Assembly: GCA_028277445.1 (NCBI GenBank)
Contig: JANQGG010000034.1
Span: forward strand, 62,001-126,000
Reading direction: 5' to 3'
DNA: 64,000 nt
Source: Chloroherpetonaceae bacterium
Lineage (GTDB): Bacteria > Bacteroidota > Chlorobiia > Chlorobiales > Chloroherpetonaceae
A model generated the notes under the pieces. It was not told the origin of the DNA. It was given only the letters and a program-made list of their open reading frames with translations, and did not search any database. This document shows, piece after piece, positions 13,922-59,548 of the stretch (position 1 is its first letter; each line of letters starts with the position of its first letter). The position numbers were made by a program, and so were the translations under genes.

Positions 13922-14145
13922 GACTTTAAGGATAAGCAGCTTACCAGGGGATATCTCGGCAGCCATGTTGAGAAGTCAGCTGAAGCCATAGTATTCTGAT
14001 TATTGGTAGACCAGGAGAAAGGCAGAAGATTAACCGTTCCAAATTAATTTGGGATGATCGAGGATATAAAGATAGTGCCATAGTCCCGGTTAAGTCCTTC
14101 ATGAAGAGGTACACAGTAACTAAAAAAGAAGTTGCCAAAGGTTAG
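13922..14145 (+). pseudogene. decayed gene fragments in two frames
   Basis: No intact gene lies in 13860-14333. Two coherent pieces occur on the plus strand: KQLTRGYLGSHVEKSAEAIV ending at a TGA at 13997-13999, and in another frame SKLIWDDRGYKDSAIVPVKS up to a TAG at 14143. The change of frame plus an in-frame stop suggests a frameshifted remnant of one or two genes. The first piece faintly recalls Bacteroidota RepA-like ATPases, but I would not name it. A palindrome CCGAA / TTCGG follows at about 14170. Confidence 0.35.
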
Positions 14146-15327: not shown

Positions 15328-16767
15328 TTACATATAAAAACTATATTTCAGTTCCATCGGATCACCTGGGCCCAAGTATTTGAGAATTTCTCCAACATTT
15401 CGTGCACATTCAATTGTAATGGGATATTTCCTGTCAAACTGGGTATTATTCCAATTCATTTTTGTCAAGCCAATAATTTCTTCACAAATAAGATATGGAG
15501 ACTCATCATATTCAAATAATCTAACTTCTATTGGACTTGGAATATATTTACCTGTATATGTTTCGTAATGTGGAATTGAGCCTCTAGTATACAACAAATG
15601 TCTATCTTCAGTAAGTTTTAAGTGAGTACCTCTTAATGGTGGATATTGTTCTGTACGATATAGTCTAACGGGAGAAGGTTGGATTGCAATTAGGTCAACT
15701 TGGTAAATATTTGATTTTTTTGCAGCCTGTTTAAATCCATAAATCTCATCTGAGTTAAAATTAGATGTTTTATGAAGCACTAATCTTTTTGGATAAATTT
15801 TAACAGAATCGTAATATTCTTTTAGTGAAAGTGATAGTAGATTAAAAGCTTGTTCTTCAGAAAGATGTGGAATTCTATTGTTTTTATTAGTTCGAATTTC
15901 TTCTCCTCTTAGAATTACACCTTTACCTAATTCATTGAAAATTTGAGCAATGCTTGTTTGTGTACTTTTCCTATCTCGGCTTCTGTAAAAACTTATACCT
16001 GCATAACATGTAGTTTCCGAAAAATCTTTTCTAATCAAAGCCCATGGTGTGCCTGATGCTTTGTAATAAATTGCAGTAAAAAAATTCCATGCAATTGTTG
16101 CAGGATCCTGCATTGTTGCATTTGGATTTGAAATTTTATCCCTCATTAATTGCAAAGGAATTTTGTGCTTCATTGCCTTTGCTTTTAATAATCGTCTAAA
16201 ATTTTGTTCTAAATAATTAGTTTCTTCATATTCATAGGGATCACTTTCATAGTTTTCATCCTCTTCTAATTCTTCATCTATATTTTCTTTTATGGAGGTT
16301 AGAAACTTATCGCTTAAAACACATAGTATTACATCAGGCTTTTTATTATTTGATAAGTATTTTATCTCTGTTAGATATAATTCAGCAATTAGTTCAATTC
16401 TTTCGCTAAGTTTATCACAATTATTAATTATGTCTAGGAAGTCAGAATTATTGATGTTTCTAATATACCCTTCATCGTAAACTATTTCAGATTTAAAACC
16501 TATACTTCTATTAAATCCACAAAAATTCATAAACAGGTTTGGATGTGGATTTTTACTTTGTTTTCCTTCAATATGTATTTTTGAGTTTTCCAGCCATTCA
16601 AGTATCTGGTCAGTGCTTTCGGACTTTCCAATAATACCAATATTTATTTTTTCAGGCCGAACAAGTTCAATATCATATGGATTAAAAGAATATATACCTT
16701 GTCTGGGACAAATATGCTGATCTGTTCCAAATTGCAGACTCGGTTCTTCTATGAATTTTATATTCAT
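15328..16767 (-). CDS. short prokaryotic Argonaute (MID-PIWI)
   Basis: The product is 479 aa from the ATG at 16767; a TTG one codon upstream is less likely. It has the size and layout of short pAgos: a MID domain and a PIWI domain with no N or PAZ domain. The MID 5'-phosphate pocket is visible as HKIPLQLMRDK (H201, K202, Q206, K211), preceded by LLKAKAM. PIWI landmarks are AIYYKASGTPWAL (232-244), CYAGISFYR (254-262), GKGVILRGEE (281-290), RLVLHKTSNF (328-337) and YTRGSIPHYETYTGKYIPSP (393-412). The first catalytic Asp is replaced by Ser (S259 in GISF), so slicing is not expected, as in all short pAgos. In the family the protein uses a guide to sense invader nucleic acid and activates its APAZ partner. 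It starts at the stop codon of that partner (TGATG overlap). Confidence 0.93.
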   Translation of the reverse strand: MNIKFIEEPSLQFGTDQHICPRQGIYSFNPYDIELVRPEKINIGIIGKSESTDQILEWLENSKIHIEGKQSKNPHPNLFMNFCGFNRSIGFKSEIVYDEGYIRNINNSDFLDIINNCDKLSERIELIAELYLTEIKYLSNNKKPDVILCVLSDKFLTSIKENIDEELEEDENYESDPYEYEETNYLEQNFRRLLKAKAMKHKIPLQLMRDKISNPNATMQDPATIAWNFFTAIYYKASGTPWALIRKDFSETTCYAGISFYRSRDRKSTQTSIAQIFNELGKGVILRGEEIRTNKNNRIPHLSEEQAFNLLSLSLKEYYDSVKIYPKRLVLHKTSNFNSDEIYGFKQAAKKSNIYQVDLIAIQPSPVRLYRTEQYPPLRGTHLKLTEDRHLLYTRGSIPHYETYTGKYIPSPIEVRLFEYDESPYLICEEIIGLTKMNWNNTQFDRKYPITIECARNVGEILKYLGPGDPMELKYSFYM

Positions 16768-18260
16768 CAATCGAATAAAGTTTGTGTTAATTCTGTATCC
16801 TCAGTTAACAACCCATTAATATTCTCAGTCTGTACTTCTTTAACTGGTAGCCATTTTTCATCGTTCAACTTTGGTGTGAATGCAATTGGTTTAAACTCAT
16901 TTAGTTTGAGAATTATATTTTTATTAGAAAATAAATCCTCATACCTCAAATAATAACTCCAAAATCTGTAGAAGTAATAGACAGACTTATTACTTTCTAA
17001 GCGCTTAATCCCAGACAAGTATGATTCCTCAAACCTGCTTCTCTTCCTTCCACCTGGATTTGTAAAACTCCAAGTTGAGTTTATTACTAAAAACCAATCA
17101 TTATTTAATAATTCAAAACTAGGTTTGAAGGCTAAATGTTTGTAACAAATAACATGATTCTCTATTTTATTCCTCAATTCAAAAATTACAGTTTTTTTAG
17201 CTTTGTTTATTGCTACCCATGAAACTGCTTTGGGACCTTTGTTTTTCTTGTCAATTTTGAATCTAATAATCCCTTTTTTATTAACCCATTCTAAATCTTT
17301 GAAATAACAATCCTGAATTAGACTGTTTCTAAGTATATTTTTAAATATTTTTAGTTTGTCTTCATCTGCTAAATAGTATTCAGAACTATCATTTTCTTCG
17401 ATTGTACCTTTATCAACTGCACTGCGTAAAGGTTCATTGCTATTATAAAGGTTTCGAAAGGTATATATTCTATTGTTTCTTAATACCCAGTCGTTAAAAT
17501 AGATTTCTTGATGTATCAATTGGTTTTTTAACAGCCTTCCCTTATCTTTTATTTTCCTTATTCGTTTCCAGCCTTTTGATTCTCTATATATATTTATTCT
17601 AGTTGTAATAACTTCTTCGTCTAAAAACAAATCTGCTGAATAAAGCTTTTCTGGTACATTTATTTTTAACAAATTACAATATAGATTCTCATATTCACTT
17701 TTTAAATAACCAGATTTAAACTTTTTCTCTCTTGATTCAATTTGGATATCAGAAAACTCATGTTTAAATATTCTCGATATGTAGGTTAGTTTTTCAAGTG
17801 ATTGATTACTAAGTCGCTTTATTAAGTCATTAGTGTCGAGGATATGTTCTGTAACATCAAATTGAAATTTATTATCAATAAGCGATGATATTTTAGAAAT
17901 AGGATAATTTTTATTCTTTCCAGCAATAAAAAAGAAATATATAACATCAAAATAGTCTGTTTGAGAATGCTCAATGAATTTTGTTAAAGACTCAATAACT
18001 TTTTGTGATGTAGCTGTTGAAGAAACTTGTATTCCAACACGATTATGAAAATCAGCCAGATCTATTGATGGATAGTTTTTATGGGATGTAATGTTTAGGT
18101 TTTCTAGGTCTAAATCAAGAACTTTATTTAGAATTGGGATTAAAAAATTCTCAGCATGAATATTAATATCGTATAACCCTTGTGCATTATACGATTTCAC
18201 TTCTTCTGTAAATCTCGAAGAATACTTTATTATTTCATTTATAATACTTTGTCTATTCAT
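16767..18260 (-). CDS. nuclease-APAZ effector partner of short Argonaute (SPARDA-like)
   Basis: This 497-aa protein is the upstream gene of the Argonaute operon. Residues 1-150 look like a restriction-type nuclease with SMEK/PD-(D/E)XK flavour: NIHAENFLIPILN (E37), NYPSIDLAD (D67), VGIQVSSTATSQK (Q78, K87), then strand-rich YFDVIYFFFIAG. The canonical final E-x-K is replaced by Q-V-S, so catalysis needs checking. Residues from about 190 on match what an APAZ region should be: no other known domain, about 300 aa, strand-rich, paired with a PAZ-less pAgo. There is no TIR (SPARTA) or SIR2 (SPARSA) domain, which leaves the DREN-APAZ class (SPARDA). Predicted role: on Argonaute activation it degrades DNA and/or RNA and aborts infection. 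The SPARDA assignment is inference. Confidence 0.8.
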   Translation of the reverse strand: MNRQSIINEIIKYSSRFTEEVKSYNAQGLYDINIHAENFLIPILNKVLDLDLENLNITSHKNYPSIDLADFHNRVGIQVSSTATSQKVIESLTKFIEHSQTDYFDVIYFFFIAGKNKNYPISKISSLIDNKFQFDVTEHILDTNDLIKRLSNQSLEKLTYISRIFKHEFSDIQIESREKKFKSGYLKSEYENLYCNLLKINVPEKLYSADLFLDEEVITTRINIYRESKGWKRIRKIKDKGRLLKNQLIHQEIYFNDWVLRNNRIYTFRNLYNSNEPLRSAVDKGTIEENDSSEYYLADEDKLKIFKNILRNSLIQDCYFKDLEWVNKKGIIRFKIDKKNKGPKAVSWVAINKAKKTVIFELRNKIENHVICYKHLAFKPSFELLNNDWFLVINSTWSFTNPGGRKRSRFEESYLSGIKRLESNKSVYYFYRFWSYYLRYEDLFSNKNIILKLNEFKPIAFTPKLNDEKWLPVKEVQTENINGLLTEDTELTQTLFD

Positions 18261-18376: not shown

Positions 18377-18458
18377 ATAACATTTAATACATTTAATGTT
18401 TAGAGTTAACTCAAGATATATACAATTTATTATTTTTCAAAAATGCATTAAAAAAATC

Positions 18459-18635
18459 ATGACTGGAAAAACCGTTTTGATCACAGGAGCTACCGGCGGC
18501 ATTGGCAAGCAAACGGCTTACGATTTAGCCGGGCTTGGCGCAAATACCTGGATACATGAAAGAAATTTCGAATGTAAGAAAAAGGGAGATATGCCTTTAT
18601 TTATTGGACTCTTTTTTAATCAATATTTCAAATAA
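18459..18635 (+). pseudogene. 5' fragment duplicate of the SDR gene
   Basis: From about 18440 to 18574 the DNA repeats 19222-19356 almost exactly, including 15 bp before the ATG. The predicted start MTGKTVLITGATGGIGKQTA matches the intact SDR with a few substitutions. After about 38 codons the similarity stops and the frame runs into unrelated DNA that belongs to a PIN-toxin remnant on the other strand. It is a truncated copy and cannot encode an enzyme. Confidence 0.85.
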
Positions 18636-18952
18636 TTCGTTAGTTGTTATTAGTCTTTTGAATCCCGAATTTTTTAGTCCTGTAATAAGCTTTTTTATGA
18701 AAACGGTGGGGGACAATGGAATGATTAACCACGGTGACATTTCTTAGAATGAGTTCATAAGTTTCAAGGAACTCGTTTTCGGTGAGATAAGCAATATATT
18801 TTATTTTTATGATTTAAGATTTCATAACGAATATATTCTGGAGCGAAGAAATGAAAGTATTTTGATCCGTTGATTATTATTTGAGCGATTCTACTATTAA
18901 TATTTAGAATTGCACTAAATAGAATATTGGAGTCAACAATAATTTTAGTCAT
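18597..18952 (-). pseudogene. frameshifted PIN-domain toxin
   Basis: The start overlaps the antitoxin gene and reads MTKIIVDSNILFSAILN, with the first PIN Asp, then APEYIRYEILNHKNKI. The frame is then lost to an early stop. The next pieces continue in other frames: IAYLTENEFLETYELILRNV, and finally KKLITGLKNSGFKRLITTNE ending at 18597, which is the normal C-terminal form. The central segment with the D-x-x-D-x-x-F/Y catalytic part is missing. At least two disruptions make it inactive as read, unless they are sequencing errors. Confidence 0.7.
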
Positions 18953-19154
18953 TAAAACCAATATCTTTTTTTATTCTGGCCCAACGATCTTTTTTAACAT
19001 CTTTGATTAAATTATCAAAGTCCTGCTGAGTTGCTTCGGAATTTGATGTCAATTCTTCATAGCTAAGGTAATCAAGAATTGATTGAATCCGGGTTGCATT
19101 ATTTCCTGCTTTAAACCTGACCAATATCTCATTGTTTTGTCGTTCTACGATCAT
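18945..19154 (-). CDS. antitoxin of the broken PIN locus
   Basis: This 69-aa acidic/basic protein is encoded directly upstream of the PIN remnant and overlaps its start by 8 bp, the usual layout of an antitoxin-toxin pair. It reads MIVERQNNEILVRFKAGNNA and ends KKDRWARIKKDIGFND; the middle has a helical segment IQSILDYLSYEELTSNSEAT. No specific family is certain, but the size and position fit a VapB-like antitoxin. It remains intact although the toxin is broken, and may now be an orphan. Confidence 0.6.
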   Translation of the reverse strand: MIVERQNNEILVRFKAGNNATRIQSILDYLSYEELTSNSEATQQDFDNLIKDVKKDRWARIKKDIGFND

Positions 19155-19240: not shown

Positions 19241-20053
19241 ATGACTGGAAAAACCGTTTTGATCACAGGAGCTACCGACGGCATTGGCATGCAAACGGCT
19301 TACGATTTAGCTGGACTTGGCGCAAATGTTTGGATACATGGCCGAAATCCGGAACGTCTGGAAAATGTTTTGTCTGAACTTAAAAACATTGCCCCTAATG
19401 GCCAGCACGGCTCATGCCAAGCTGATTTTAGCAGCTTTGCACAAACTAGAAAACTGGCCGAAGACGTGAATCAGTCGCTGGATCGTTTGGATGTGCTTAT
19501 CAACAATGCCGGCGTGTTTATGAATGAGTTTGAGGAATCTGAAGATGGCTACGAGATGACTTTCGCCGTCAATCATCTGGCGCATTTTTTACTCACGCTC
19601 GAACTGTTGCCGTTGCTTCAAAAAAGCGCCCCTTCACGCATCATCAATGTAAGTTCTATTGCTCACCAGGGCGGCGGAATAGATTATGATACTTTAAACA
19701 GCAAACATCATTTTGATGGGTACAGGGCATATTGTCTCTCAAAACTGGCTAATATTCTCTTTACCCGGCAGCTTGTTTTGGAGTTGGAAGGCACCGGGAT
19801 CACCGCTAATTCACTGCATCCGGGAGTGGTAACTACCAAGCTTCTTTGGGCTGGATTTAGTATTGAAGGCGTTGGATTGGAAGAAGGCGCTGAAACTTCG
19901 GTGTATTGCGCGAGCTCACCGGAACTTGAGAATGTAACCGGAAAGTATTTCATTAAGAAAATGCCGGCCACGCCTTCCAAATACGCTCAGGATGATGAAG
20001 CCGCCAGAGAATTATGGGATAAAAGCCTGGAGATGGTGGGTTTGCGGGATTAG
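19241..20053 (+). CDS. short-chain dehydrogenase/reductase (SDR)
   Basis: This 270-aa NAD(P)-dependent oxidoreductase has a classical SDR core: TGATDGIG at 9-16, NNAG at 88-91, a serine block INVSSI (136-140) and the catalytic Y164-x-x-x-K168 in YRAYCLSK. The sequence around SLHPGVVTTKL resembles the retinol-dehydrogenase/WW-domain-oxidoreductase-like branch. The substrate is unknown. A truncated copy of its 5' end lies 782 bp upstream, with a toxin-antitoxin locus in between. Its last 4 bp overlap the end of the convergent DUF2442 gene. Confidence 0.92.
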   Translation: MTGKTVLITGATDGIGMQTAYDLAGLGANVWIHGRNPERLENVLSELKNIAPNGQHGSCQADFSSFAQTRKLAEDVNQSLDRLDVLINNAGVFMNEFEESEDGYEMTFAVNHLAHFLLTLELLPLLQKSAPSRIINVSSIAHQGGGIDYDTLNSKHHFDGYRAYCLSKLANILFTRQLVLELEGTGITANSLHPGVVTTKLLWAGFSIEGVGLEEGAETSVYCASSPELENVTGKYFIKKMPATPSKYAQDDEAARELWDKSLEMVGLRD

Positions 20054-20307
20054 TCATGAACAAGTTTTGAGTCTGCTGGCTCACTTTGCTCATAAAGCAC
20101 TTCAGGATCGATATCAGCATGATTTGCCCATTCGACTGTATCAAAGCTTATCTTAACAGTATTAAATAATTTGATGTCTTTAAGCTGCTTAAACAAGCCA
20201 ATATCTAGATATGGCTTCATATCGAACAGTCGTTTTTCCCCATTCTCAAATGTAAGCAATAGTTTGTAATCTTCTTTAGGGGCGACTTGTTTTACAGCAA
20301 GATACAT
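20050..20307 (-). CDS. DUF2442 domain protein
   Basis: This 85-aa protein has the DUF2442 pattern: VKQVAPKEDYKLLLTFENGE, RLFDMKPYL, VKISFDTVEWANHADIDPEV and LYEQ. Its partner DUF4160 is encoded 5 bp upstream in the same direction. DUF4160-DUF2442 pairs recur widely and behave like small mobile modules, often suspected to be toxin-antitoxin-like; function is unproven. The gene is convergent with the SDR gene and overlaps its end. Confidence 0.85.
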   Translation of the reverse strand: MYLAVKQVAPKEDYKLLLTFENGEKRLFDMKPYLDIGLFKQLKDIKLFNTVKISFDTVEWANHADIDPEVLYEQSEPADSKLVHD

Positions 20308-20312
20308 AATTG

Positions 20313-20579
20313 TTATTTTAAAGGTTCAATTTTGAAAGGCGTTTCTCCGTTTTGACATAATTCCCAATCAGCCAGCAATTCTTCTTTATGTATTTCCATC
20401 CATGCTTGAATTAATCTGGTTTGTTTTAAAGGCATTTTACCTCCTAATAATTCAAAGTCACCAATGCTAAAAGATGCTTTATTATTTTGATAATAAGCAT
20501 GGATATGTGGTGGATTATGTTCACTGGGTGCAAAATACATTCTAATGATGATACCATAAAACATAGAAATAGTAGGCAT
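20313..20579 (-). CDS. DUF4160 domain protein
   Basis: This 88-aa protein matches DUF4160: PTISMFYGIIIRMYFAPSEH, then the characteristic NPPHIHAYYQNNKASFSIGD, and a C-terminal LIQAWMEIHKEELLADWELC. It is transcribed together with the DUF2442 gene just downstream. The His-rich PPHIHA motif is diagnostic. The biochemical role is unknown. Confidence 0.88.
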   Translation of the reverse strand: MPTISMFYGIIIRMYFAPSEHNPPHIHAYYQNNKASFSIGDFELLGGKMPLKQTRLIQAWMEIHKEELLADWELCQNGETPFKIEPLK

Positions 20580-23285: not shown

Positions 23286-23690
23286 TCAACCCACTCGCTT
23301 CCAAATTTGTGTTCGGTAAAATAACCATAGATAACCACGAACATACAAATCCCCATTTTCAATCCAGAGCTTGCAATCATAGATATCGCCTTTTTCTGGA
23401 TCTAAGATAGTACCATTTTTAAGTTCACCATCATCCATTACCATGTCCCGGATAATTTCCATGCCGAGCATTTTTTGATTTTTTCGATCATCGGGGCATT
23501 TGTCGCAAATAGGATCAGGATCCTCATCGGGTTTGGGAAAAAGTTGAATGATTTTTCCAAAATATTTGCCTTCTTTTTGAAATATGTCCACAATTGAGGT
23601 TTCTTCACCCGAATCTTCATCAAAAGATTTCCATGATCCAATGTAGGGGTTTGTTGTGTTTTGCTGAGTTGAAGGATTATCCATAACCAA
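23286..23690 (-). CDS. DUF2147-like protein without signal peptide
   Basis: This 134-aa protein resembles the DUF2147 family (lipocalin-like beta barrel): PYIGSWKSFDEDSGEETSIV, GKIIQLF, ICDKCPDD, a central MLGMEIIRDM, and DPEKGDIYDCKLWIENGDLY followed by an aromatic YLWLFYRTQIWKRV. Most members are exported, but this start lacks a signal peptide, so it may be cytosolic or the start may be wrong. A broken copy of its N-terminal part lies at 25618-25711, beyond the lactate permease gene. Confidence 0.82.
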   Translation of the reverse strand: MVMDNPSTQQNTTNPYIGSWKSFDEDSGEETSIVDIFQKEGKYFGKIIQLFPKPDEDPDPICDKCPDDRKNQKMLGMEIIRDMVMDDGELKNGTILDPEKGDIYDCKLWIENGDLYVRGYLWLFYRTQIWKRVG

Positions 23691-23841
23691 GAAAAGTTGA
23701 GATTGATTAATGTTTAAATGCAGGATAATATAATGGTAAGCAGGTAAAAAAACATTGAAATTGAGTTCGGATGTTTACATTTAGTGCTATTACCACAGAT
23801 TGATTTTTCATTGTCGTCGTTCAGTTGAGACGGGACGATGT

Positions 23842-25431
23842 TCAAAAAAAAGCTAAAGCAATCACTCCGGCTAAGACACCATAAATGAGCATGGGGAGTA
23901 CGGTTCGTTTTAAAATAAATCCTTCCTGATTAGATAGAGCGAGCACGGATGTTACTGCAACAATATTATTAATACACACCATATTGCCAAATGCCCCACC
24001 CACCGATTGCAAGGCAAGGGTGGTTGTCCGATCCAGACCAATTTCAAGCGAAATAGAATTCTGAATACCGGCAAATGTCAGATTGGAAATTGTGGCAGAA
24101 CCTGAAAAGAAAGAACCGACAGCTCCAAGAAATGCTGCGAAAAATGTCCAATTATTTCCTGCCAGATCTGCCAGCACATTGCCTATCGTATTTACAGCCG
24201 ATCTTTCACCACCCATCATCATGAGGTTTACAAAGATCAATGCGCCTAATAAGGCATATGTGGGATTTTGCATTTGTTTAACCGTTATGGAAAAAACTGA
24301 GGCTATGCGTTGTTTGGGTGACTTATAGATCCAAAATGCGAAAAGCGAAATCACGCCAAATGGAATAAAGGAAGGCACATAAAGGATTTTATGAGACCAA
24401 TCGGTTGGTGTCTGGAAGATGTTCTCTAACCCAACGAACAGGGAAAGGCTGATCCAAAAGTCACCCAACATGCCTAATGAAAAATGTGCAGAAGGGCTTT
24501 TTGCCATCAACAATTGTTGGATGCCAAGCTGAGGAATACGTGTTACTACAAGAATAAGAATGGTTCCCCATAATGGGAAAGTGGCTTTTACAAGCTGAGG
24601 AATGGTTATTTGCCCCTTGCTATCAGCGTTGTCTTGAGAATCAGTAGAGTTTAATAAGCCTATTTTTTTCTGAGCCAGCAATGCTGAGGCAACCAGCCCA
24701 ACGGCACCGCCAATGAGCGCCGGAAATTCATAATTAAATGACGAAACCATCAGATATGGCACAACGGTGAACGCAACACTTAACACAACATAAAGTCCAT
24801 TTTTTAAAATGCTTTTCCAACTCACCAGTTGTAGTAACGCCATGACCACAATAAACAGGGCAACAATCGTATGGATGGTAGCTGACTTGAACGCAATCGT
24901 TAAGGTTTCGGCCTCGGTTAAATCTATGGCCGAGAAACCAAACCAAGTGGGCGTTCCAACCGCGCCAAAGGATACGGGTACGGAGTTCATCATTAATGCC
25001 AGAATGGCAACCTTTATCGGATTGTACCCCAGTCCAACTAAAACGGGTGCGGCAATGGCTGCTGGCGTGCCAAATCCGCTTGCGCCTTCAATCAGAAACG
25101 GAAATGCCCACCCAACGATCATAAGCTGAGCAACCTGGTTATCCGTAACACTGTTAAGCCATGTTTTTACGGTGGCAATACTTCCGGTTTCCTCCATGGT
25201 TTTGAACAAAAAAACCGCTCCGCCAATAATTAAGATGGGCGTCCACGCAACCAGCAAGCCTTTCAGGACATTGGCGTGGATGAAGTTCGGATCGTATTCG
25301 AAGACAATGAGTGATATGAAATAGAGAAGAACAGCTACGAGGGGCAGAGCCCGGCTGGAAGGCATGCCATTTTTCTTGACCATCAACCATATCAACAAAA
25401 GTATTGGGATAAACGAGAACGCTATGGCCAT
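23842..25431 (-). CDS. lctP: L-lactate permease
   Basis: This 529-aa inner-membrane transporter of the LctP family takes up lactate (and glycolate) with protons. Many hydrophobic segments are visible along the whole length. Family motifs include WAFPFLIEGASGFGTPAAIA, PVSFGAVGTPTWFGF, FFSGSATISNLTFAGIQ and a C-terminal VCINNIVAV. It is a monocistronic gene between an intact and a truncated DUF2147 gene. Length and motifs are normal. Confidence 0.95.
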   Translation of the reverse strand: MAIAFSFIPILLLIWLMVKKNGMPSSRALPLVAVLLYFISLIVFEYDPNFIHANVLKGLLVAWTPILIIGGAVFLFKTMEETGSIATVKTWLNSVTDNQVAQLMIVGWAFPFLIEGASGFGTPAAIAAPVLVGLGYNPIKVAILALMMNSVPVSFGAVGTPTWFGFSAIDLTEAETLTIAFKSATIHTIVALFIVVMALLQLVSWKSILKNGLYVVLSVAFTVVPYLMVSSFNYEFPALIGGAVGLVASALLAQKKIGLLNSTDSQDNADSKGQITIPQLVKATFPLWGTILILVVTRIPQLGIQQLLMAKSPSAHFSLGMLGDFWISLSLFVGLENIFQTPTDWSHKILYVPSFIPFGVISLFAFWIYKSPKQRIASVFSITVKQMQNPTYALLGALIFVNLMMMGGERSAVNTIGNVLADLAGNNWTFFAAFLGAVGSFFSGSATISNLTFAGIQNSISLEIGLDRTTTLALQSVGGAFGNMVCINNIVAVTSVLALSNQEGFILKRTVLPMLIYGVLAGVIALAFF

Positions 25432-25617
25432 TTTTTGTGAGGTATGAATTAAAAACAGTCTCTAAAGTTCCGGCTTCAGAGCACGGCATTATATAGCAAT
25501 TTATTTCTGATAACTCGTTATACAAGCATTAAGAAATCGTTTGTGCTTAAAAAAATAAAAGTGATGATGAATTTTAGTATTGATTAAGGTAATTCTTGAG
25601 AGATGTTGAAATATTGT

Positions 25618-25711
25618 TAAAGATTTCCACAATGGAGGTTTCTTAGCCGGAATTTTCATCAAAAGATTTCCAGGAACCAATGTATGGGGCGGTTGTTTGT
25701 TCTGAAGGCAT
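25618..25711 (-). pseudogene. 5' fragment of a second DUF2147 gene
   Basis: The minus strand reads PYIGSWKSFDEN, then a stop codon (TAA) in place of the Glu codon, then ETSIVEIF. This is nearly the same as the start of the intact gene at 23690. Beyond about 25618 similarity ends. It is a decayed partial paralogue that brackets the lactate permease gene from the other side. Confidence 0.8.
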
Positions 25712-25740
25712 AAAATGATTATTAAGATTATTATTAATAA

Positions 25741-26727
25741 TTAAAATGGAAGATCGTCTTTATTGGGTACCCACGCATTTTCTTCAATAACTAAAGAAAA
25801 ATTATCGTTATTCCAGTCTGATTTTCTAATAAATTTTAATTTATCATCATCATCAAAAATTTTTTTAAATATATGTAATGTGAACTTTTTTTTATTGGTT
25901 TCTTTATACCAAATATAATGAGGTTCTTCTTCATCACTAGATATCATTCGATCTGTATTACCTTCAAATTCATAACCTCTAGCTTTCAATAAACCATCTA
26001 AATCTTCTTTCCCTTCAATATAAAAATTATATGGTATATCTAACTCATTTTTAATTCTTTCGACTAATGGATGATTAATGGTTAATATTCGATTAATTTC
26101 ATCCGATTGATCTTTATTTTCATCACTTAAATAATTAACTAATTTATTAAGAGTTTGAGCAGTTTTTTCTAATCCTTTAATTAAACTGACTTCTTTTATT
26201 CTTATTTGATCTTCTAAAAAACTTTGAAATAAACCTGCGAATTGTTCTTTTAGAAATTTTGTGATATCTGAGGCAGTTTCAAAACCATATATTGCATTAT
26301 TTGTACTTAATGATTTAATTTCTTCTATGAATTGATATATACGTTTATCATCAACATATTTATACAAAGTATGATTGTCTTTATTGATTAAATAAGTCTC
26401 ATATTCAGAAAGTACATTTTTATCAATGAAAATATATACTTGTTTATTTTCTTTAAGAGCGGTTTTTAATTCTAATTGAGAAATAGAATCAGATTTATTA
26501 TTAGATTCATTTCCATAACGTCCTCCAACAATTGAAACCAGTATATCAACACCCTTAATCTCTTTATAGCAGTAGTCTTCTAATGCATTTTCTTTACCAT
26601 ATGGTATTTCACCTTCTTCATTTCTTACAGGTTCATATCCTAATTGTTCTAAAAAAAGATCAATATTAGCTCTAACTTGTCTTAAATCATAAAATGTAGA
26701 ACTTATGAATATTCTTGGTTTAGCCAT
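25741..26727 (-). CDS. DUF4062 (TIR-like fold) domain protein
   Basis: This 328-aa protein begins with a DUF4062 domain (about residues 1-90): PRIFISSTFYDLRQVRANID, LEQLGYEPVRNEEGEIPYGK, YCYKEIKGVDILVSIVGGRY and SISQLELKTALKENKQVYIF. DUF4062 is related to TIR-like domains and occurs at the N terminus of signalling and conflict proteins. The rest (about 150-328) is helical and then mixed, with no recognised motif. It lies directly downstream of an orphan DUF2281 antitoxin gene. AT-rich codon use suggests recent transfer. A defence role is possible but not shown. Confidence 0.8.
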   Translation of the reverse strand: MAKPRIFISSTFYDLRQVRANIDLFLEQLGYEPVRNEEGEIPYGKENALEDYCYKEIKGVDILVSIVGGRYGNESNNKSDSISQLELKTALKENKQVYIFIDKNVLSEYETYLINKDNHTLYKYVDDKRIYQFIEEIKSLSTNNAIYGFETASDITKFLKEQFAGLFQSFLEDQIRIKEVSLIKGLEKTAQTLNKLVNYLSDENKDQSDEINRILTINHPLVERIKNELDIPYNFYIEGKEDLDGLLKARGYEFEGNTDRMISSDEEEPHYIWYKETNKKKFTLHIFKKIFDDDDKLKFIRKSDWNNDNFSLVIEENAWVPNKDDLPF

Positions 26728-26767
26728 AAATTTTCAGTTTAATAAATAATCAGTAATATTTACTTAA

Positions 26768-26971
26768 TTACATGTAATCTTTAAAATCCTCAAGGGGTTC
26801 ATCAAAATCATCATGCATTATAAATAATCCTTTTGCGCACCCAAACTTTCTTTCTTTAATCTTTGTCTTTGATTTTTTTTTGATTTTTAGGAACTCAACA
26901 AAATCTTTTACCTCTTGTTTAAGCGAGTTGGGTAATTTGCTGATTTCAGTATATAGTTCAATATTGCTCAT
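26768..26971 (-). CDS. DUF2281 (VapB-type) antitoxin, without toxin
   Basis: This 67-aa protein matches DUF2281 antitoxins: IELYTEISKLPNSLKQEVKD, FVEFLKIKKK and an acidic end DDFDEPLEDFKDYM. It closely resembles the antitoxin at 29011-29220, which does have a PIN toxin. Here the gene downstream is the DUF4062 protein and no PIN gene is present, so it is an orphan, or the toxin was replaced. Confidence 0.85.
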   Translation of the reverse strand: MSNIELYTEISKLPNSLKQEVKDFVEFLKIKKKSKTKIKERKFGCAKGLFIMHDDFDEPLEDFKDYM

Positions 26972-27200
26972 ATTAAATTCCTGGCGTTCTTAAACATTTT
27001 ACATAACGGCATACTTATACCACAAATGTAACGAATTATCTATACTTGGAAACATGTTTTCAAGACTTCTTAATGAAATAAAGTATTAGACTGGCTTAAA
27101 AAGTCCGTTTAAACAATATTAATAATCCTTTTCATATTGCTTCAGGCTGTTTTTAAACCAAGTCATTGATATGAGTCTATAGAAATATTCCCCAAAGTCT

Positions 27201-28541
27201 TTAATCCTCCTGATCCATCGACCCGTACCAGTTGATCTTTCGCGAAAGGAACATCGTCAGGGCGATCACTGCAAATAACCCAATGCTGCCGATAAGCAAC
27301 GAATAAGCTTCCATTTGCAGGATGGTGTAAAGGAACACGTACAGTAGCACAAGCTCCAGCGACACCAGTAAAGTGACTTTCATGTTCCTGAATATCTGCG
27401 CGGAATAAGCAGAGATGAGTCCTATGACTGCACCACTGGCAATCAGAAATGCCCAGTCGAGTCCAATGTGTTCGGCGAGGGAAATCAGCAGCGAGTAAAA
27501 CACGCAGAGCGCAAGCCCGATCAAAAAGTATTGTATGGGATGCACGCGTTTTTTCTGGGTGATTTCTGAGAGAATGAAAATCAAAAAGGTCAGCGAAAGA
27601 AAAATAATCGCGTATTTCACCGAGCGCTCGGACTTTTGATACAAATCCACCGCAAAAATCAAATCCACACCAAACTTGGAGTTAATGACCGGGTATTGAT
27701 TTTCCAACCACTGCTGGGGATAGGTTCGGTTCAACGCCAAAATGTTCCAGGACGCTTCAAATCCATCCTTTGAAACCGTTCTCTCGTCGGGCAGAAATGC
27801 ACCGGAAAAGCTGGGGTCTTTCCAGTTGGAACTAAGCTTTACCGTGGTTTCTTTGCCTACCGGGATAAAATTCAGTGACTGACTGCCATTAACATCCAGG
27901 GTAAACTCAAATGTGTTCACAGCGTTATTGATGTTTCCAATCATGGCTGAGACGCCCGAACTTAAGACATCGCGCGAGGGAATGCCGGGACTTGCTTCGT
28001 AGGCGCTATCGTTAAACCGGAAGTTGATAAGTTTATTTATGCCGCGCATATCGGTGATCCCGAAACACAGGGTGGTTTCATCATACAGGATTTGGCTCTC
28101 TGTGAGTTTCCACACTGAGAAATCCGGTTTTTGAAACACGCCGCTCAGCTTTAGTTTGGATGAATACACCACCACCTCATAGATGCTTCTGTAGCGCACT
28201 TCGGGCGAGGCGCTGCCTTCAATGCTGAGTTCTGAAGGCAGGAAATGCGCATATTTTTTTACTACTTCTTTGCGCTCTTTGTAGGTATTTTTGCCATCAT
28301 CTTTTTCCTTGATAGTTTGCGTAACCAGGTAAGGAATACTAAGGATTGGGCCGGTCAAGAGCTGCTCATTGGCCCATTTGGAACTCACATCGCGAATAAC
28401 TTTATCACGGGTCATTTCGCGTTCATAGATGATAGACTCAATCATCGAAGCCGGAATCAGAAGAAGCAGGGTTAAAATCGCAATGACAATAAACTTGAAC
28501 GTGATGGATTCTTTTGCCCAGGTTTTAAAATCTCCGGCCAT
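27201..28541 (-). CDS. creD: CreD-like inner membrane protein
   Basis: This 446-aa protein matches CreD (cell envelope integrity protein): an N-terminal helix (IVIAILTLLLLIPASMIESI), a RDKVIRDVSSKWANEQLLTG motif followed by PILSIPY, a large periplasmic segment (about 60-300), and six hydrophobic segments in the last 150 residues. Typical is YALFGL-like HPIQYFLIGLALCVFYSLLI. CreD maintains the envelope and affects colicin and beta-lactam responses in enterobacteria; its role in this organism is not known. It is a single gene with no CreBC two-component genes nearby. Confidence 0.9.
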   Translation of the reverse strand: MAGDFKTWAKESITFKFIVIAILTLLLLIPASMIESIIYEREMTRDKVIRDVSSKWANEQLLTGPILSIPYLVTQTIKEKDDGKNTYKERKEVVKKYAHFLPSELSIEGSASPEVRYRSIYEVVVYSSKLKLSGVFQKPDFSVWKLTESQILYDETTLCFGITDMRGINKLINFRFNDSAYEASPGIPSRDVLSSGVSAMIGNINNAVNTFEFTLDVNGSQSLNFIPVGKETTVKLSSNWKDPSFSGAFLPDERTVSKDGFEASWNILALNRTYPQQWLENQYPVINSKFGVDLIFAVDLYQKSERSVKYAIIFLSLTFLIFILSEITQKKRVHPIQYFLIGLALCVFYSLLISLAEHIGLDWAFLIASGAVIGLISAYSAQIFRNMKVTLLVSLELVLLYVFLYTILQMEAYSLLIGSIGLFAVIALTMFLSRKINWYGSMDQED

Positions 28542-28627
28542 AGTGGTGTGCGTTTAGGTTTTTTATGGAATGCCATTTAAGATTAGGATATCTTTTTGGG
28601 AGTTGCAATAGCTTTACAAAGGTAGTT

Positions 28628-29011
28628 TTACCAAATGGTATCAATAGGGTATGATTTAAAATGAATGTCTTTAGTTATAACTGTTAAATTGGAAGATATA
28701 GCTTGAGATATAATAATTCTATCAAAAGGATCTTTATGGAATTTCTCAAGAGATAGTAATACTTTTATATCACTTAAATCAATCGGTAAAATTGCAAAAT
28801 CATTATCTGAGAGAAAATTTTCTATTGTTTTGAATCCGCCTTTAATTTCTAATTTTTCCAGTGAAAGTTTAATTGCAATTTCCCAAATGCTAGCGATACT
28901 GATATAACAACGATTTGAAAAATCTTGAATGGTATTTACAATATGATTTGGAAGTTGTTTATCTCCTGTAATAAACCATAAAAATGCATGTGTATCAATT
29001 AAAAGATTCAT
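28628..29011 (-). CDS. vapC: VapC-type PIN-domain toxin
   Basis: This 127-aa PIN ribonuclease shows the acidic active-site residues: D6 in LIDTHAFLWF, E43-E46 region in SIWEIAIKLSL, and Asp residues in KDPFDRIIISQAI, then TKD. Family members cleave tRNA or rRNA when released from the antitoxin. The ATG overlaps the antitoxin stop (TAATG), which is typical coupling. Its partner is the DUF2281 gene just upstream. All catalytic residues are present, so it is probably active. Confidence 0.92.
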   Translation of the reverse strand: MNLLIDTHAFLWFITGDKQLPNHIVNTIQDFSNRCYISIASIWEIAIKLSLEKLEIKGGFKTIENFLSDNDFAILPIDLSDIKVLLSLEKFHKDPFDRIIISQAISSNLTVITKDIHFKSYPIDTIW

Positions 29012-29220
29012 TACATATAGTCTTTAAAATCTTCTATTGGATCATCAAAACCTGGTTTAATTTTTATAGCATTTTTAGCATAACCAAACTGACGCTGCTT
29101 TTTTTGTTTTTTTGTGGAGTTCTTCTTTTTAGCGATAAGGAAATCCACAAAATCCAACACTTCATTTTTAAGGTTTGTTGGCAACGAAGTGATTTTTGTA
29201 TACAATGATATATCCGTCAT
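29011..29220 (-). CDS. vapB: DUF2281 antitoxin of the VapC locus
   Basis: This 69-aa antitoxin has the DUF2281 N-terminal (ISLYTKITSLPTNLKNEVLD), a basic middle (AKKKNSTKKQKKQRQFGYAK) and an acidic C terminus (GFDDPIEDFKDYM) that would enter the toxin active site. It is co-transcribed with the PIN toxin, overlapping by one base. It is similar to the orphan antitoxin 2 kb away, suggesting duplication. Confidence 0.9.
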   Translation of the reverse strand: MTDISLYTKITSLPTNLKNEVLDFVDFLIAKKKNSTKKQKKQRQFGYAKNAIKIKPGFDDPIEDFKDYM

Positions 29221-32022: not shown

Positions 32023-33986
32023 TTAGGTGGATTTTTTCAAAAGGATTTGAGCGCTATGAATTTTAATCACATCATTATACAGCTGTTTTAATTGCTCATA
32101 TTCTTCAAGAGTAAAGAGTGTTTTATTAATGTTGAATTTAAACACAACCGATAGGATAGCGCCTGGCCGAAATTCTTAACTGAAAACATCAATGAGGCGC
32201 CTTTTTCAGGAAGTTCGATCCATTTTTCCGAAGGCAATTCTTCCACGGTATAACCTTTCGGAATCTGAATTTGAGCAATATAGTTTACGGCTTCAGGGTA
32301 GGCGTATTCAACCGGGTAATCGCGCTTTTCTAGTTTAAAAGGATTATCTGTGAGCCTGCCATCAACAAAGGGATTTAACAACAGCAGGTTTCCGGTTTGC
32401 TGCGCGATTGCGCTGGATTTGAAACGATAATAAATCGTTAATGGATCATAAGGCGTATTCTGATTTAAAGAATCAAGCGATAACTCGGCATCTGTAAATT
32501 TGTTACTGTAGTCATTGAGGTATTCTTCTGTGCTTTTATGATTCGATAAATCTTTACGCTTTTCAATAGCAGCGTACCCCTTACTGGTTTCTTTCATTTC
32601 CCCGAATATTTTCCCATCCGGATCTAATGTGAGTTTGGTATAATAGGTTTTATTGGAGTCAAATTTTGGCGATAATTCAACCCATTTGCCGCCATTTTCA
32701 TCAATCAAACGGCCATGATAGTTCAGACAGCGTGCCGGTAAAATGCCGGCGGGCATAAACTTATCAGTAGCATCCAAAAGTACGGTTTTATTGTTGAATG
32801 TTACTGAAGCAATCACATAATTGAATTGATCAACCATAAATAATAATGGATGGATAAATCCATTGGAACGGGTGCTTAAAAGAACCGGGTCGGCCTGATA
32901 TCCCATTGTGCGCATAGCTGCAACAAGCAGGAGGTTAATATCAGCGCTACTTCCGATTTTTTTCTCCCAGGCATCTTCAACGCTTTTAGACAGAAACCAA
33001 TTTATTTTATTCCATGCCATGCTTTTTTGAATATGTCTGTACAGGGCTTTGATCCGCTCAAAATCGCCGTTGTATGTTGCTTTTATGGTTTCTATATCAG
33101 CTTCGAGAACATTGCCACGATATAATTGCTCGCCAAAATTATAGTGTTTGAGTAAATCGGTTGAAACGCTTTTCCAGGATCCTCTAAGATCTTTCGAAAA
33201 ACCAAGAGGGGGTCTATAGGAGCGCAATTCAAATTCTACACCTGAAAGATAATTTTGCATGCATGTCATGTGCGACTCTTTCTGAAAAGCCGGAATGTCT
33301 TTGACTTCAAAATCTATGGTTTTTACCGAATAAGAGCCGGAAGAAGGGGATGTGTGGTATGAATTGACCTTTCTCTGAATATCGTAGCTTCCTTTTACGA
33401 GCTCTTTGAACCTGAAATATTCAGGGATAGCGACTTCATACCGGCTGTGCCGAACCGGTATTTCCCATTGAAATTCCCAGTCACGTATATCCAAGTATTT
33501 AATCCGTATGGTGTATTCTGCATCAATGACTGAACCTACCTTAACATTGGGCACCTCAAATTTTGTGAGATTCCAGTAATCATTTAAACGTTCTTCATAC
33601 GTATCTGAACCGTCAAGCTCTTGCTCCATGATTTTGCCATTTTCCAGTGTAAATGAACTGGCTTCAATATCATAGATATCGGCATTCTTGTAATAAACGG
33701 GAATTTCAAAATTAGCGTAAGTGTAGCCTTCCTTTTTAAGGATTTTAATCCGGGTGATTCTGTGATAGTCAACCACAAAACCATCGTAGGTTAGAATAAT
33801 GCGTGAGGTTCCGTAATCACATAATACGGCAGCAGCGGCTGAAGAATCAGACGGATAATGCGTCATTTTTAAATCCTCTATCGGGATTTCGCCAAACTCA
33901 ATGGGCGCATCGTCGGCTAAAGAAAGAGATGTATTTAAAGTAAAGGCAATAAAGAAAAGTAGAGACAAGGTTTTTAAAAACATCAT
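32023..33986 (-). pseudogene. DUF3857/transglutaminase-like protein, paralogue 2, frameshifted near C terminus
   Basis: The open frame runs 33986-32088 (632 aa) and ends in unrelated residues after SVKNFGQAL. In another frame the expected end continues: VVFKFNINKTLFTLEEYEQL, then QLYNDVIKIHSAQILLKKST with a stop at 32023. This matches the intact neighbour (KLIFSVKNSGQ..., IHNAEILLKKST) closely. The shift lies at about 32155-32168 around GGCCAGGCGC and is explained by one missing or two extra bases. The rest is a normal signal peptide (MFLKTLSLLFFIAFTLNTSL), DUF3857 domain and a transglutaminase region in which the usual Cys is replaced (KKIGSSADINLLLVAAMRTM). Only the last 40 residues are affected, so it may still be functional, or this may be a sequencing error. 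Confidence 0.85.
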
Positions 33987-34033
33987 GGGAGTTATTTGGG
34001 TTACGGTTTTTTAACTAAGAACATTTAATTCTA

Positions 34034-34072
34034 AAGAATTCCTCGAGGCTCTGCCACGGGGAAATTCATTTG
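34034..34072. repeat. REP-like GCAGCTTGC motif, copy 3
   Basis: GAATTCCTCGAGGCTCTGCC followed by ACGGGGAAATTCATTTGG is a degenerate copy of the palindromic family at 5189 and 14305. It lies in the gap between paralogues 2 and 3. Confidence 0.45.
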
Positions 34073-34235
34073 GTTTATCTGCTTGCTATGGTGGTAAAAC
34101 AGTGCAAACGAAGATAACATTTAATGCTTAAATGTTACAGACAATTTTTATCGTTTAGCTTCAAAACCAGTAGCTTGTTGTTAATCATGATTCCAAAACA
34201 GTCGTCAACTAGTAAACAAAGTGCATGCAGACCAG

Positions 34236-36194
34236 TTAAGTGCTTTTTTTCAAGAGGATTTCAGCATTATGAATTTTAATAACTTCGTTATATAGCTGTT
34301 TTAATTGATCATATTCATCAGGTGTAAATACTGTTTTATTGATTTTGAATTTAAAAACAACCAATAAAATCTGGCCAGAATTTTTTACTGAAAAGATTAA
34401 AGACCCTCCGTTTTCAGGAAGTACTATCCATTGTTCAGCAGGTAATTCTTCAACCGTGTAACCTTCGGGTAGTTTTATTTGAGTAACATAGTTCAGTTCT
34501 TTTGGGTAGGTGTATTCAACCGGATAGTCACGTTTTTCCAATTTAAATGGATTTTCTTTGATTCTTCCTAAAATAAAGGGATTAACTAAATGTAGATTCA
34601 TGGATTGAGAGGACAAGCTTGAATACTTAAATTGATAGTAAAGCGTTAATGGTTTATATGGATCAATCTGTCTAAGAGAATCAAGAGAAAGTTTTGCAGT
34701 GAAATATTGATTGCTGTATTCTTTATTATAGTCGTCAACACTATTGTGGTTTGATAACTTTTTTTGCATTTCAATAGCTGCGTATCCAATTGAGATTTCT
34801 TTTATTTTGCCGGAAATATTTCCATCCAGATTAAGTGTAAGATCAACATAGTAAGTTTTATTAAAATTAACTCTGGGAGATAAATCAACCCATTCACCGC
34901 CATTTTCATCGATTAACCGGCCATGGTAGTTCAAACAACGAGAAGGTAATATGCCGGCAGGCATGAACTTATCCGTTGCATCCAAAAGTATGCTTTTATT
35001 GTTGAATGTAACCGAAGCAATCACATAATTGAATTGACTCACCAGATAAAATTTTTGATGAACAAAACCATTCGAACGGGTGCTTAAAAGAACAGGATTT
35101 GCTTTATAACCCATGGTGCGAAGCCCAGCAATAAGTAACAGATTAATATCAGCTGAACTACCTATTTTTTTCTCCCATGCATCTTCAATGCTTTCGGAAA
35201 AGACTCGCTTATTGCCATTCCATGCCATGTTTTTTTTGATATGTTCATATAAAGCTTTAATCCTCTGAAAATTATTAGTATGATTAGCTTTTATAGTTTC
35301 TATAACCTTTTCAAGAACATCTCCGTTATCTAATTGATCTCCAAACTCATCACGTTCGAATAAATTAGTGGAAATGCTTTTCCATGATTCTGTAAGGTCT
35401 GTTGTGTCTCCATAGATCCCTTTGTAAGATCGAAGTTCAAATTCTATGCCCAAAAGATGATTCGTGATGCTTGTGATATGAGATTCTTTTTGAAAAGCCG
35501 GAATGTCGGTGGCTTTAAAATCAATGTATTTGATCCAATAAGTACCGATAATCGTTGAAACTTCAAATTTCCTGACTGTACTGGTGATTTTATGTTTCCC
35601 TTTTTGAAATATGTCAAACATGAAATATTCAGGTATGGCCACCGCATACTGGCTTTGCCTCACCGGTATTTCCCATTGAACCGCCCAGTTACGTATGATA
35701 CTACGCTTGATCCGAATCTTGTACTTAACCTCAATAACGGTGCCAACCTTTACATTGGGAACTTCAAATTTCGTAACATCCCAATTGTCATTGTAACGCA
35801 GTTTGAAGATATCTGATTTTTTAATCTCATGTTTATGGATTGTACCATCTTCCAGTGTATAAGAAAATGCTTCAAGATCATTCAACTCTTCATAGTCATT
35901 AAAAATGGGTATTTTAAAATTAGCGTATTTATAGCCATCCTTATTAAGAATTTTAATTCGAGATATCCTTTGATAATCAACCACAAATCCATAGTAATCA
36001 GCAAAAAAGATAGAATTCCCATAATCACATAATACAGCAGCAACAGCCGATGAATCAGATGGATAATGGGTCATTTTTAAATCCTCTATCGGGATTTCGC
36101 CAAATTTTATAGGTGGGGTAATAGCTAAGGATGATGTGTTATAAAAACAAAAAAGGATAAAAAGTATAACGCCTGGGATTTTTTGATACATCAT
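34236..36194 (-). CDS. DUF3857/transglutaminase-like protein, paralogue 3
   Basis: This 652-aa protein is closely related to paralogue 2 over its whole length (shared EIPIEDLKMTHYPSDSSA, AWEKKIGSSADINLLL, KFMPAGILPSRCLNYHGRLI). It has a signal peptide (VILFILFCFYNTSSLAIT), a DUF3857 domain and a transglutaminase-like domain. As in paralogue 2, a Ser occupies the position where paralogue 1 has the catalytic Cys (IGSSAD versus YGDCKA), so transglutaminase chemistry is unlikely. It is a tandem duplicate with paralogue 2 and separated from it by a REP-like repeat. Confidence 0.88.
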   Translation of the reverse strand: MMYQKIPGVILFILFCFYNTSSLAITPPIKFGEIPIEDLKMTHYPSDSSAVAAVLCDYGNSIFFADYYGFVVDYQRISRIKILNKDGYKYANFKIPIFNDYEELNDLEAFSYTLEDGTIHKHEIKKSDIFKLRYNDNWDVTKFEVPNVKVGTVIEVKYKIRIKRSIIRNWAVQWEIPVRQSQYAVAIPEYFMFDIFQKGKHKITSTVRKFEVSTIIGTYWIKYIDFKATDIPAFQKESHITSITNHLLGIEFELRSYKGIYGDTTDLTESWKSISTNLFERDEFGDQLDNGDVLEKVIETIKANHTNNFQRIKALYEHIKKNMAWNGNKRVFSESIEDAWEKKIGSSADINLLLIAGLRTMGYKANPVLLSTRSNGFVHQKFYLVSQFNYVIASVTFNNKSILLDATDKFMPAGILPSRCLNYHGRLIDENGGEWVDLSPRVNFNKTYYVDLTLNLDGNISGKIKEISIGYAAIEMQKKLSNHNSVDDYNKEYSNQYFTAKLSLDSLRQIDPYKPLTLYYQFKYSSLSSQSMNLHLVNPFILGRIKENPFKLEKRDYPVEYTYPKELNYVTQIKLPEGYTVEELPAEQWIVLPENGGSLIFSVKNSGQILLVVFKFKINKTVFTPDEYDQLKQLYNEVIKIHNAEILLKKST

Positions 36195-58913: not shown

Positions 58914-59315
58914 TTACCCATTTAGCAGTTTTAAGCCATATGTTTCGTAGTTTTTAAACCGTTTGTCCTGAGTGAGCATAGCATAATCTTTTCGGATGGC
59001 TTCCCAAATGAGCAAACGATCAAACGGGTCTTTGTGAATTGTGTTAGGTAATTTATAAAAGGTGGCATACGAGGTATGATCAATATCTTCAATAGTATAC
59101 CCAGAGTTTATGAGTATGTCAGGTAATTTATCAGGGGTGATGTTTTTTAATTGTAGTTTATTAAGTGAATATTTTAGACTGATTTCAAAGAATGAAATAC
59201 TGCTAATGATAATTTCATTTTTTTCATCTTTAATTAATTCAATTTCTTTTTTTGATAATTTAGAATCGTCAAATAATAGATAAAGTAAAATATGGGTATC
59301 AATCAAAACGTTCAT
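58914..59315 (-). CDS. vapC: VapC-type PIN-domain toxin
   Basis: This 133-aa PIN ribonuclease has D6 in LIDTHILLYL, a Glu in FFEISLKYSL, the KDPFDRLLIWEAI motif and TQDKRFKNY. It overlaps its antitoxin by 4 bp (ATGA) and is 127-133 aa long like the other active VapC at 28628, with which it shares the same sub-family (DTHxLL, DPFDR). Catalytic residues are intact. Confidence 0.9.
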   Translation of the reverse strand: MNVLIDTHILLYLLFDDSKLSKKEIELIKDEKNEIIISSISFFEISLKYSLNKLQLKNITPDKLPDILINSGYTIEDIDHTSYATFYKLPNTIHKDPFDRLLIWEAIRKDYAMLTQDKRFKNYETYGLKLLNG

Positions 59316-59548
59316 AGTGTTAATAAGTCTTCATCACTGATTTTAAAATCATCATTGATTGTAAATGAGGCCTTACCTTTTAATAGTCCTACTTTTCGCT
59401 TTTTCTGTTCATATTTTTTATAAGGTACAATAACAGCAATCTTTTCATGTTTTTTTCCATATTCGATGATAATTTCTTCTCCCTTCTTTACAGAAGTAAT
59501 AACATCAGAAAAATTTGCTTTTAAGTGAGCAACGGTTAGTGCTTTCAT
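59312..59548 (-). CDS. Phd/YefM-type antitoxin
   Basis: This 78-aa antitoxin has the Phd/YefM N-terminal fold (ALTVAHLKANFSDVITSVKK, GEEIIIEYGKKHEKIAVIVP) and a C-terminal acidic tail. It is paired with a VapC toxin rather than Doc, a frequent mix. It probably represses its own promoter together with the toxin. A palindrome TTGACA-CGT-TGTCAA lies about 80 bp upstream. Confidence 0.88.
   Translation of the reverse strand: MKALTVAHLKANFSDVITSVKKGEEIIIEYGKKHEKIAVIVPYKKYEQKKRKVGLLKGKASFTINDDFKISDEDLLTL

Follow-up and report, generated by a model that had tools for sequence, protein, structure and literature searches.

A DUF4062 protein with an SSB-like C-terminal tip, encoded behind an orphan vapB gene, as a predicted stand-alone TIR-like NADase

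The DUF4062 gene that lies directly behind an orphan VapB antitoxin gene (vapB1) is, in the reading that we regard as the more probable one, a stand-alone anti-phage TIR-like NADase effector-sensor that was horizontally acquired as single-gene cargo, for which VapB1 is no partner and whose C-terminal tip docks on proteins that bind the tip of single-stranded DNA-binding protein (SSB). What the data themselves show of this reading are the domain family, the conserved Glu column, the TIR-like fold of the model, the conservation and specificity of the tip, the prophage and defence contexts and the lack of a recurrent antitoxin. Judged from its sequence and predicted model, the protein is a variant of the Swarozyc/TIR-like NADases with an SSB-type tip, and no description of such a tip on DUF4062 proteins was found in the open literature, searched as articles without their supplements.

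Organization and composition of the locus

The window analyzed here is the whole stretch of 64,000 nucleotides, and its features that bear on the DUF4062 gene are the following:

25618-25705 (-): 5'-end remnant of a DUF2147 gene, immediately downstream of the DUF4062 gene (blastn to the intact copy)
25741-26727 (-): DUF4062 gene, 328 aa (open reading frame list and Pfam DUF4062)
25744-25761 (-): codons of the KDDLPF tip, the stop codon being 25741-25743
26470-26472 (-): codon of Glu86, predicted to be catalytic, in the column of KpSwz E97 (alignments and profile match)
26728-26767: intergenic region that separates vapB1 from the DUF4062 gene, 40 bp, 12.5% GC (reading frame coordinates)
26768-26971 (-): vapB1, intact orphan DUF2281/VapB antitoxin gene, 67 aa (Pfam, NCBIfam)
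27023-27030 (-): TACATTTG, putative Bacteroidota-type -7 motif upstream of vapB1 (motif scan)
27201-28541: creD, between the two VapB loci (Pfam)
28628-29220 (-): vapB2-vapC2 cassette, DUF2281 plus PIN, complete, 2 kb from vapB1 (reading frames, Pfam, NCBIfam)
28628-29011 (-): vapC2, PIN, 127 aa
29011-29220 (-): vapB2, DUF2281, 69 aa

It is clear that two similar DUF2281 antitoxins lie 2 kb apart and that one of them has its PIN toxin, as the earlier note had claimed. The products of vapB1 and vapB2 match Pfam DUF2281 (E 1.4e-21 and 5.1e-18, respectively), are both named VapB by NCBIfam NF050009 and are 57% identical, while the 127-aa VapC2 matches PIN with an E value of 5.1e-15. VapB1 keeps the conserved C-terminal motif ...DFDEPLEDFKDYM that is common to VapB2. 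The placement of vapB1 directly upstream of the DUF4062 gene on the same strand is likewise confirmed, with a gap of 40 bp in place of the 41 bp first written.

The GC content of the DUF4062 gene is 25.1% and that of vapB1 is 29.4%, against 44.2% for lctP and 45.9% for creD on the flanks. The DUF2147 remnant is 88 bp long and matches the intact copy beyond lctP, at 23286-23690, with 81.8% identity (E 5e-21), which indicates that the site beside the DUF4062 gene was rearranged in the past. The DUF4062 gene looks like AT-rich cargo that was acquired behind an orphan vapB.

Several further elements were observed in the window. A short pAgo (PADLOC pAgo_I, 3e-176) and its REase/SMEK-type Aga partner (3.5e-133) occupy 15328-18260 (-) at 28-30% GC; the distance between this SPARDA-like system and the DUF4062 gene is 7.5 kb. 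An Rfam match to group II intron D1-D4 (45 bits, gathering threshold 35) at 13939-14023 (+) adjoins an AT-rich island. A truncated short-chain-dehydrogenase-like copy, the start of which resembles by eye that of the intact gene at 19241-20053, adjoins an AT-rich PIN_2 fragment (18396-18635 and 18764-19154). An AT-rich DUF4160-DUF2442 pair at 20050-20579 (-) is a candidate TA-like cassette, and a similar pair, recognized by eye, also follows the DUF4062 gene at locus L052. There is an AT-rich PIN cassette (29% GC) at 58914-59548 (-), the small upstream gene of which appears by eye to encode a Phd-type antitoxin-like protein, and two tandem similar proteins of 632 and 652 aa, with the N-terminal motif GEIPIEDLKMTHYP in common, are encoded at 32088-36194 (-).

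Transcription of the DUF4062 gene

Within the 473 bp upstream of the start of the DUF4062 gene the only TANNTTTG lies before vapB1, whereas five of the seven relative loci examined have this motif 25-66 bp ahead of the start of the gene; given that the motif is short and that 0.33 occurrences are expected by chance in shuffled sequences, this is weak evidence. We take TACATTTG to be a -7 motif of the Bacteroidota type. Consensus matches to a full promoter, whether sigma-70-like or of the Bacteroidota type, were no more frequent than in shuffled sequences, and no full -33/-7 promoter was found here.

The position of the motif and the short same-strand gap behind vapB1 would fit a capture that is transcriptional only, in which the DUF4062 gene entered the site next to vapB1, possibly in place of vapC1, and, its own promoter being lost, came to use the VapB-autoregulated one, with no neutralization between the two proteins. 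Nonetheless, the shortness of the motif and the missing full promoter speak against this, and VapB tends to repress weakly when VapC is missing, so that we consider such a capture rather unlikely, though still to be reckoned with. It is compatible with the DUF4062 protein being a stand-alone effector, which is the best explanation.

Domain, catalytic residue and predicted fold

In a 2026 preprint, DUF4062 is described as a family of TIR-like NADases and Swarozyc as an anti-phage abortive-infection system, in which the C-terminal winged-helix AUX domain of the protein KpSwz binds the phage portal (PMC13174449). Pfam DUF4062 (PF13271, E 5.3e-17) covers only residues 5-90 of the 328-aa protein of the window, which can be divided into a predicted TIR-like NADase domain (about 1-150), a helical stalk (152-200), a C-terminal domain (about 205-316) and the tip (323-328). 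The only PDB relative detected by sequence was KpSwz, to which the subfamily profile matches in the N-terminal domain (E 6.6e-5). Glu86 is invariant in both alignments, with 11/11 rows in A2 and 13/13 in A3, and aligns with the Ala of the deposited KpSwz E97A chain, so that its assignment to the E97 column is deduced from the substitution and construct numbering of that chain; L052, a closer relative of KpSwz in the survey (E 7e-55), has Glu in the same column.

The AlphaFold2 model of the full-length protein consists of a TIR-like core, a long helix spanning residues 152-200, the C-terminal domain and a low-confidence tail (319-328), with modest overall confidence (mean pLDDT 70.1, pTM 0.45). 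It matches TIR folds and the deoxyribosyltransferase folds of DNPH1/NDT, which, together with the report cited above, bears out the earlier description of DUF4062 as TIR-like. The C-terminal domain modelled alone reached a pLDDT of 75.8. Searches of the PDB with its fold yielded no clear relative, the best match having an E value of 0.83 in Foldseek and a Z of 5.1 in VIA; KpSwz was absent among its Foldseek matches in a library with entries to April 2026, and the C-terminal profile gave no sequence match to the winged-helix AUX domain of KpSwz. Neither PADLOC nor NCBIfam gave the DUF4062 protein a meaningful name.

The protein shares with Swarozyc, represented by KpSwz (PDB 10wc, 11cq and 11cv), the N-terminal DUF4062 domain, the catalytic Glu column, a similar length (a 326-residue chain versus 328 aa) and, by the predicted model, the succession of TIR-like core, helical stalk and C-terminal domain, in addition to being the product of a single gene with patchy horizontal spread. 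It differs from KpSwz in its C-terminal domain, for which no relation to the portal-binding AUX could be detected by sequence, and in carrying an SSB-like tip, which L052 lacks; the term SSB does not occur in the main text of the preprint (PMC13174449). As judged by sequence and model, the protein is most likely a TIR-like NADase of a subfamily that is distinct from KpSwz and has its own C-terminal domain.

An SSB-like tip at the C-terminus

The DUF4062 protein ends in ...VPNKDDLPF and the main SSB of the host in ...FEPEKDDLPF, the last six residues being identical, while the second SSB of the source genome has no such end. A tip made of acidic residues and an X-Pro-Phe end is found in 14 of the 15 distinct full-length members of the subfamily (the window protein, L014, L015, L017, L086, L087, L088, L090, L093, L094, L096, L097, L098 and L130); the only tipless member is L085, which ends in ...DDVEAIF. 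It is absent from all of the 19 further DUF4062 proteins that have closed ends, including L089, L091 and L092, with which only about the first 200 residues are common; this check covered reading frames no shorter than 120 aa that have an SST-like motif within their first 120 residues, and so a minority of the 107 DUF4062 places of the survey described below, with L001, L002, L006, L018, L023 and L103 skipped as duplicates and L012 and L054, which have no visible end, outside the 19. Among 12 sequences, the mean pairwise identity of the last six residues is 61%, and that of each of the three six-residue blocks ahead of them is 6-7%, although the comparison is made in register from the C-terminus and indels lower the identity of the preceding blocks. 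The tip has the make-up of the SSB tip (DDDIPF in E. coli), with the same terminal acidic-hydrophobic-Pro-Phe arrangement on a flexible, poorly conserved linker, and differs in being attached to a predicted TIR-like NADase with no OB fold.

The SSB tips of five genomes that carry members are KDDLPF, INDLPF, EDDLPF, EDDLPF and DESLPF. These resemble the tips of the members, but in two of the host genomes the SSB deviates to some extent from the DUF4062 tip, which means that exact matching to the host is not general. In the 3.42-Mb source genome, the DNA pattern [DE]D[LIVFM]PF-stop has three matches, namely the DUF4062 gene, SSB and a UvrD-like helicase (control 0), and in seven genomes it has 15 (control 2): five SSBs, four DUF3127 proteins, four members of the DUF4062 subfamily, one UvrD-like helicase and one DNA polymerase B, where L117, L126 and L129 were named SSB from their positions. 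This indicates that the tip is rare and otherwise tied to proteins of DNA metabolism, plus DUF3127.

Some of the proteins found in this way are of interest in their own right. The UvrD-like helicase (G000:C36, L116:1501-2871 (-)) ends in ...NPSDDLPF and is thus a repair helicase with a tip of the SSB type, and the family B DNA polymerase of L123 (G001:C1:1031335-1031352) ends in ...DEDVPF, also of the SSB type. The four DUF3127 proteins (L119, L120, L122 and L124) carry an acidic-LPF tip like that of SSB, and the sequence of this tip suggests that DUF3127 may be an SSB-hub or ssDNA-related protein.

The LPF-type end could instead be a degron that is read by ClpXP and keeps a toxic enzyme scarce, given that in some strains of Streptococcus mutans the last three residues of SsbA, LPF, suffice for degradation by ClpXP (PMC5143411). 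In that system altered motifs impeded degradation, and GFP carrying DDDLPF was not degraded by E. coli (PMC5143411). The tips of the family also end in VPF, IPF, DPF, NPF, SPF and FPF. The alignments show that the acidic residues before PF are conserved as well, and altogether a degron is improbable. A further reading, in which the tip is a ligand of the sliding clamp or an incidental acidic end that docks on nothing, is quite improbable: peptides that bind the clamp likewise have a hydrophobic end and one of the 15 members lacks the tip, but the Gln of the clamp motif is missing, the Phe is strictly terminal, and all other proteins with the tip in the seven genomes are SSB, DNA helicase, DNA polymerase or DUF3127. 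Docking of the SSB type is the reading proposed for the tip.

Distribution and genomic neighbourhoods of the subfamily

The subfamily is rare and patchy. It was detected in 3 of 394 genomes of the phylum (E 1e-15), in 4 of 299 of the family of the Flavobacterium limicola genome G351 (E 1e-20), the locus of which is L017, and in 3 of 395 of the class of that genome (E 1e-30), one detection being N-terminal only in each case; these counts include the source genome where it was searched. Searches for further homologues in plasmids and phages gave N-terminal relatives only, and neither a search in E. coli nor a single-sequence viral scan with the DUF4062 protein of the window gave a match. When conserved flanks that might have travelled with the gene were sought by comparing 400 bp on either side with seven relatives by blastn, the upstream flank gave one weak 30-bp match (E 0.003, L017) and the downstream flank nothing below E 0.1.

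Four members (L086, L087, L088 and L090) lie inside prophage tail operons, where they adjoin genes for tail completion (phrog_26) and/or baseplate assembly (phrog_6142), and are single AT-rich genes of 32-36% GC in loci of 52-56%. The prophages that carry them are presumably P2-like. This tail-baseplate site is different from the defence hotspot of P2 phages, which is located between gpA and gpQ (PMC9122126). L085 has the richest defence neighbourhood, although it is the tipless member, and adjoins ThsA, ThsB and a KAP NTPase (Thoeris), while L097 adjoins SduA (Shedu). Against a role in defence speak L096, which is found beside a MucBP-domain protein that is not a known defence gene, and several Bacteroidota members that lie among ordinary genes. 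No recurrent partner gene was found among the listed neighbours of the members. The prophage and defence contexts, among them the short pAgo pair of the window, together with the lack of a recurring partner, fit a self-contained defence gene.

The pairing of vapB1 with the DUF4062 gene

Across 296 genomes of the phylum there are 97 DUF2281 and 107 DUF4062 places, and the order seen at vapB1, with DUF2281 directly upstream of DUF4062, occurs at one of each, in the source genome. The two families lie within 2 kb of each other only there and in G304, where the DUF4062 gene comes first and DUF2281 follows it after two small reading frames (DUF4160 and DUF2442 by eye). The available flanks of the other full-length homologue loci held no DUF2281 (0/15; L014-L017, L085-L088, L090, L093, L094, L096-L098 and L130), where L015 and L016 are near-identical, the duplicates L018 and L103 are uncounted and the upstream flank of L014 is 218 bp. 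The suggestion of a new pairing between antitoxin and effector, for which the earlier note had named a lack of recurrence in other genomes as the refuting outcome, is therefore not supported, and a new DUF2281-DUF4062 TA pair was rejected.

The usual downstream neighbour of DUF2281 is PIN. A scan of 31 of the 97 places, in which the ends of reading frames were assumed from the match position where the phmmer seeds missed, found 26 with a reading frame within 150 bp, and 22 of these 26 are PIN; the DUF2281-PIN pairs mostly overlap or abut, compared with the 40 bp that separate vapB1 and the DUF4062 gene. In another bacterium, VapC and DUF2281 form a working TA pair (PMC12654330). The vapB2-vapC2 cassette is an ordinary member of this type, whereas vapB1, which encodes the same type of Type II VapBC antitoxin, has no adjacent PIN gene and has DUF4062 as its neighbour at 40 bp. 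The third DUF2281 of the source genome (G000:C48:79416-79613, L003) is 55% identical and is also not followed by a PIN gene, which means that an orphan DUF2281 is not peculiar to the DUF4062 site. Given the rarity of the pairing, PIN as the usual neighbour and the orphan DUF2281 elsewhere in the genome, the most fitting reading of vapB1 is an orphan VapB gene, which is probably a bystander or the source of transcription for the DUF4062 gene.

As to how the orphan arose, an accident, which had been proposed as decay of the PIN gene, is favoured, and this gene may have decayed in place, although a tblastn search with VapC2 over 23601-28600 found no PIN remnant (best E 0.74), and the 40-bp gap is too short for a PIN gene.

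TA genes were also observed beside another DUF4062 gene, on the Enterococcus plasmid pXD5 (L081:2766-5420), where it lies between a Fic-family gene and an AbrB/Doc TA pair; the partners are different and the TA pair is downstream. It is very improbable that VapB1 neutralizes or directly controls the predicted TIR-like NADase as a functional partner, since the same strand, the 40-bp distance, the intact vapB1 with no PIN remnant and the TA genes downstream on pXD5 and in G304 are outweighed by the single occurrence of the order, the motif shared with VapB2, whose toxin is PIN, and the prevalence of closely spaced PIN genes behind DUF2281. This negative result means that an antitoxin beside an effector gene is no evidence of a pair unless the arrangement is recurrent.

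Proposed mechanism and significance

For the stand-alone effector, it can be proposed that the DUF4062 gene landed behind an orphan vapB, the promoter of which may now drive it. By analogy with KpSwz, the TIR-like heads and the helical stalk would hold the resting protein in an autoinhibited oligomer. The disordered tip would copy the acidic tip of SSB and dock on proteins with an SSB-tip pocket, candidates being host replication or recombination proteins at ssDNA, or proteins of the phage that exploit this pocket. Where the phage replicates or recombines, a perturbation or a multivalent assembly would realign the heads, leading to NAD+ hydrolysis and abortion of the infection. In this scheme, the hydrolysis of NAD+, the role in defence, the binding of the tip and what sets it off are inferred. 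Against the docking step speak the tipless L085 and the possible degron role of LPF. Against the scheme as a whole speak the modest confidence of the full-length model and the C-terminal domain, which matches neither KpSwz by sequence nor a PDB fold clearly and so offers no guide to how a signal would reach the heads.

Phage SSB is the trigger of several defence systems, among them AbpAB, a nuclease-helicase pair (PMC10732053), which makes sensing through the SSB hub plausible as a theme. The feature in common with the DUF4062 protein would be the sensing of phage infection via ssDNA-protein complexes. Of the systems named in that work, none is known to be a TIR-like NADase that carries a tip of the SSB type. 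It is possible, and is put forward tentatively, that these proteins are a new TIR-like NADase immune subfamily that uses its SSB-tip mimic as bait, becomes part of the SSB hub and is set off once the tip is engaged or displaced by replication or recombination proteins of a phage.

If this is true, one gene would couple a short linear motif of a host protein to NAD+ depletion. The short separable peptide, identical to the tip of the host SSB, offers a concrete and testable idea of what the subfamily may sense, and suggests that an immune effector may contain a short motif that mimics a hub protein of the host.
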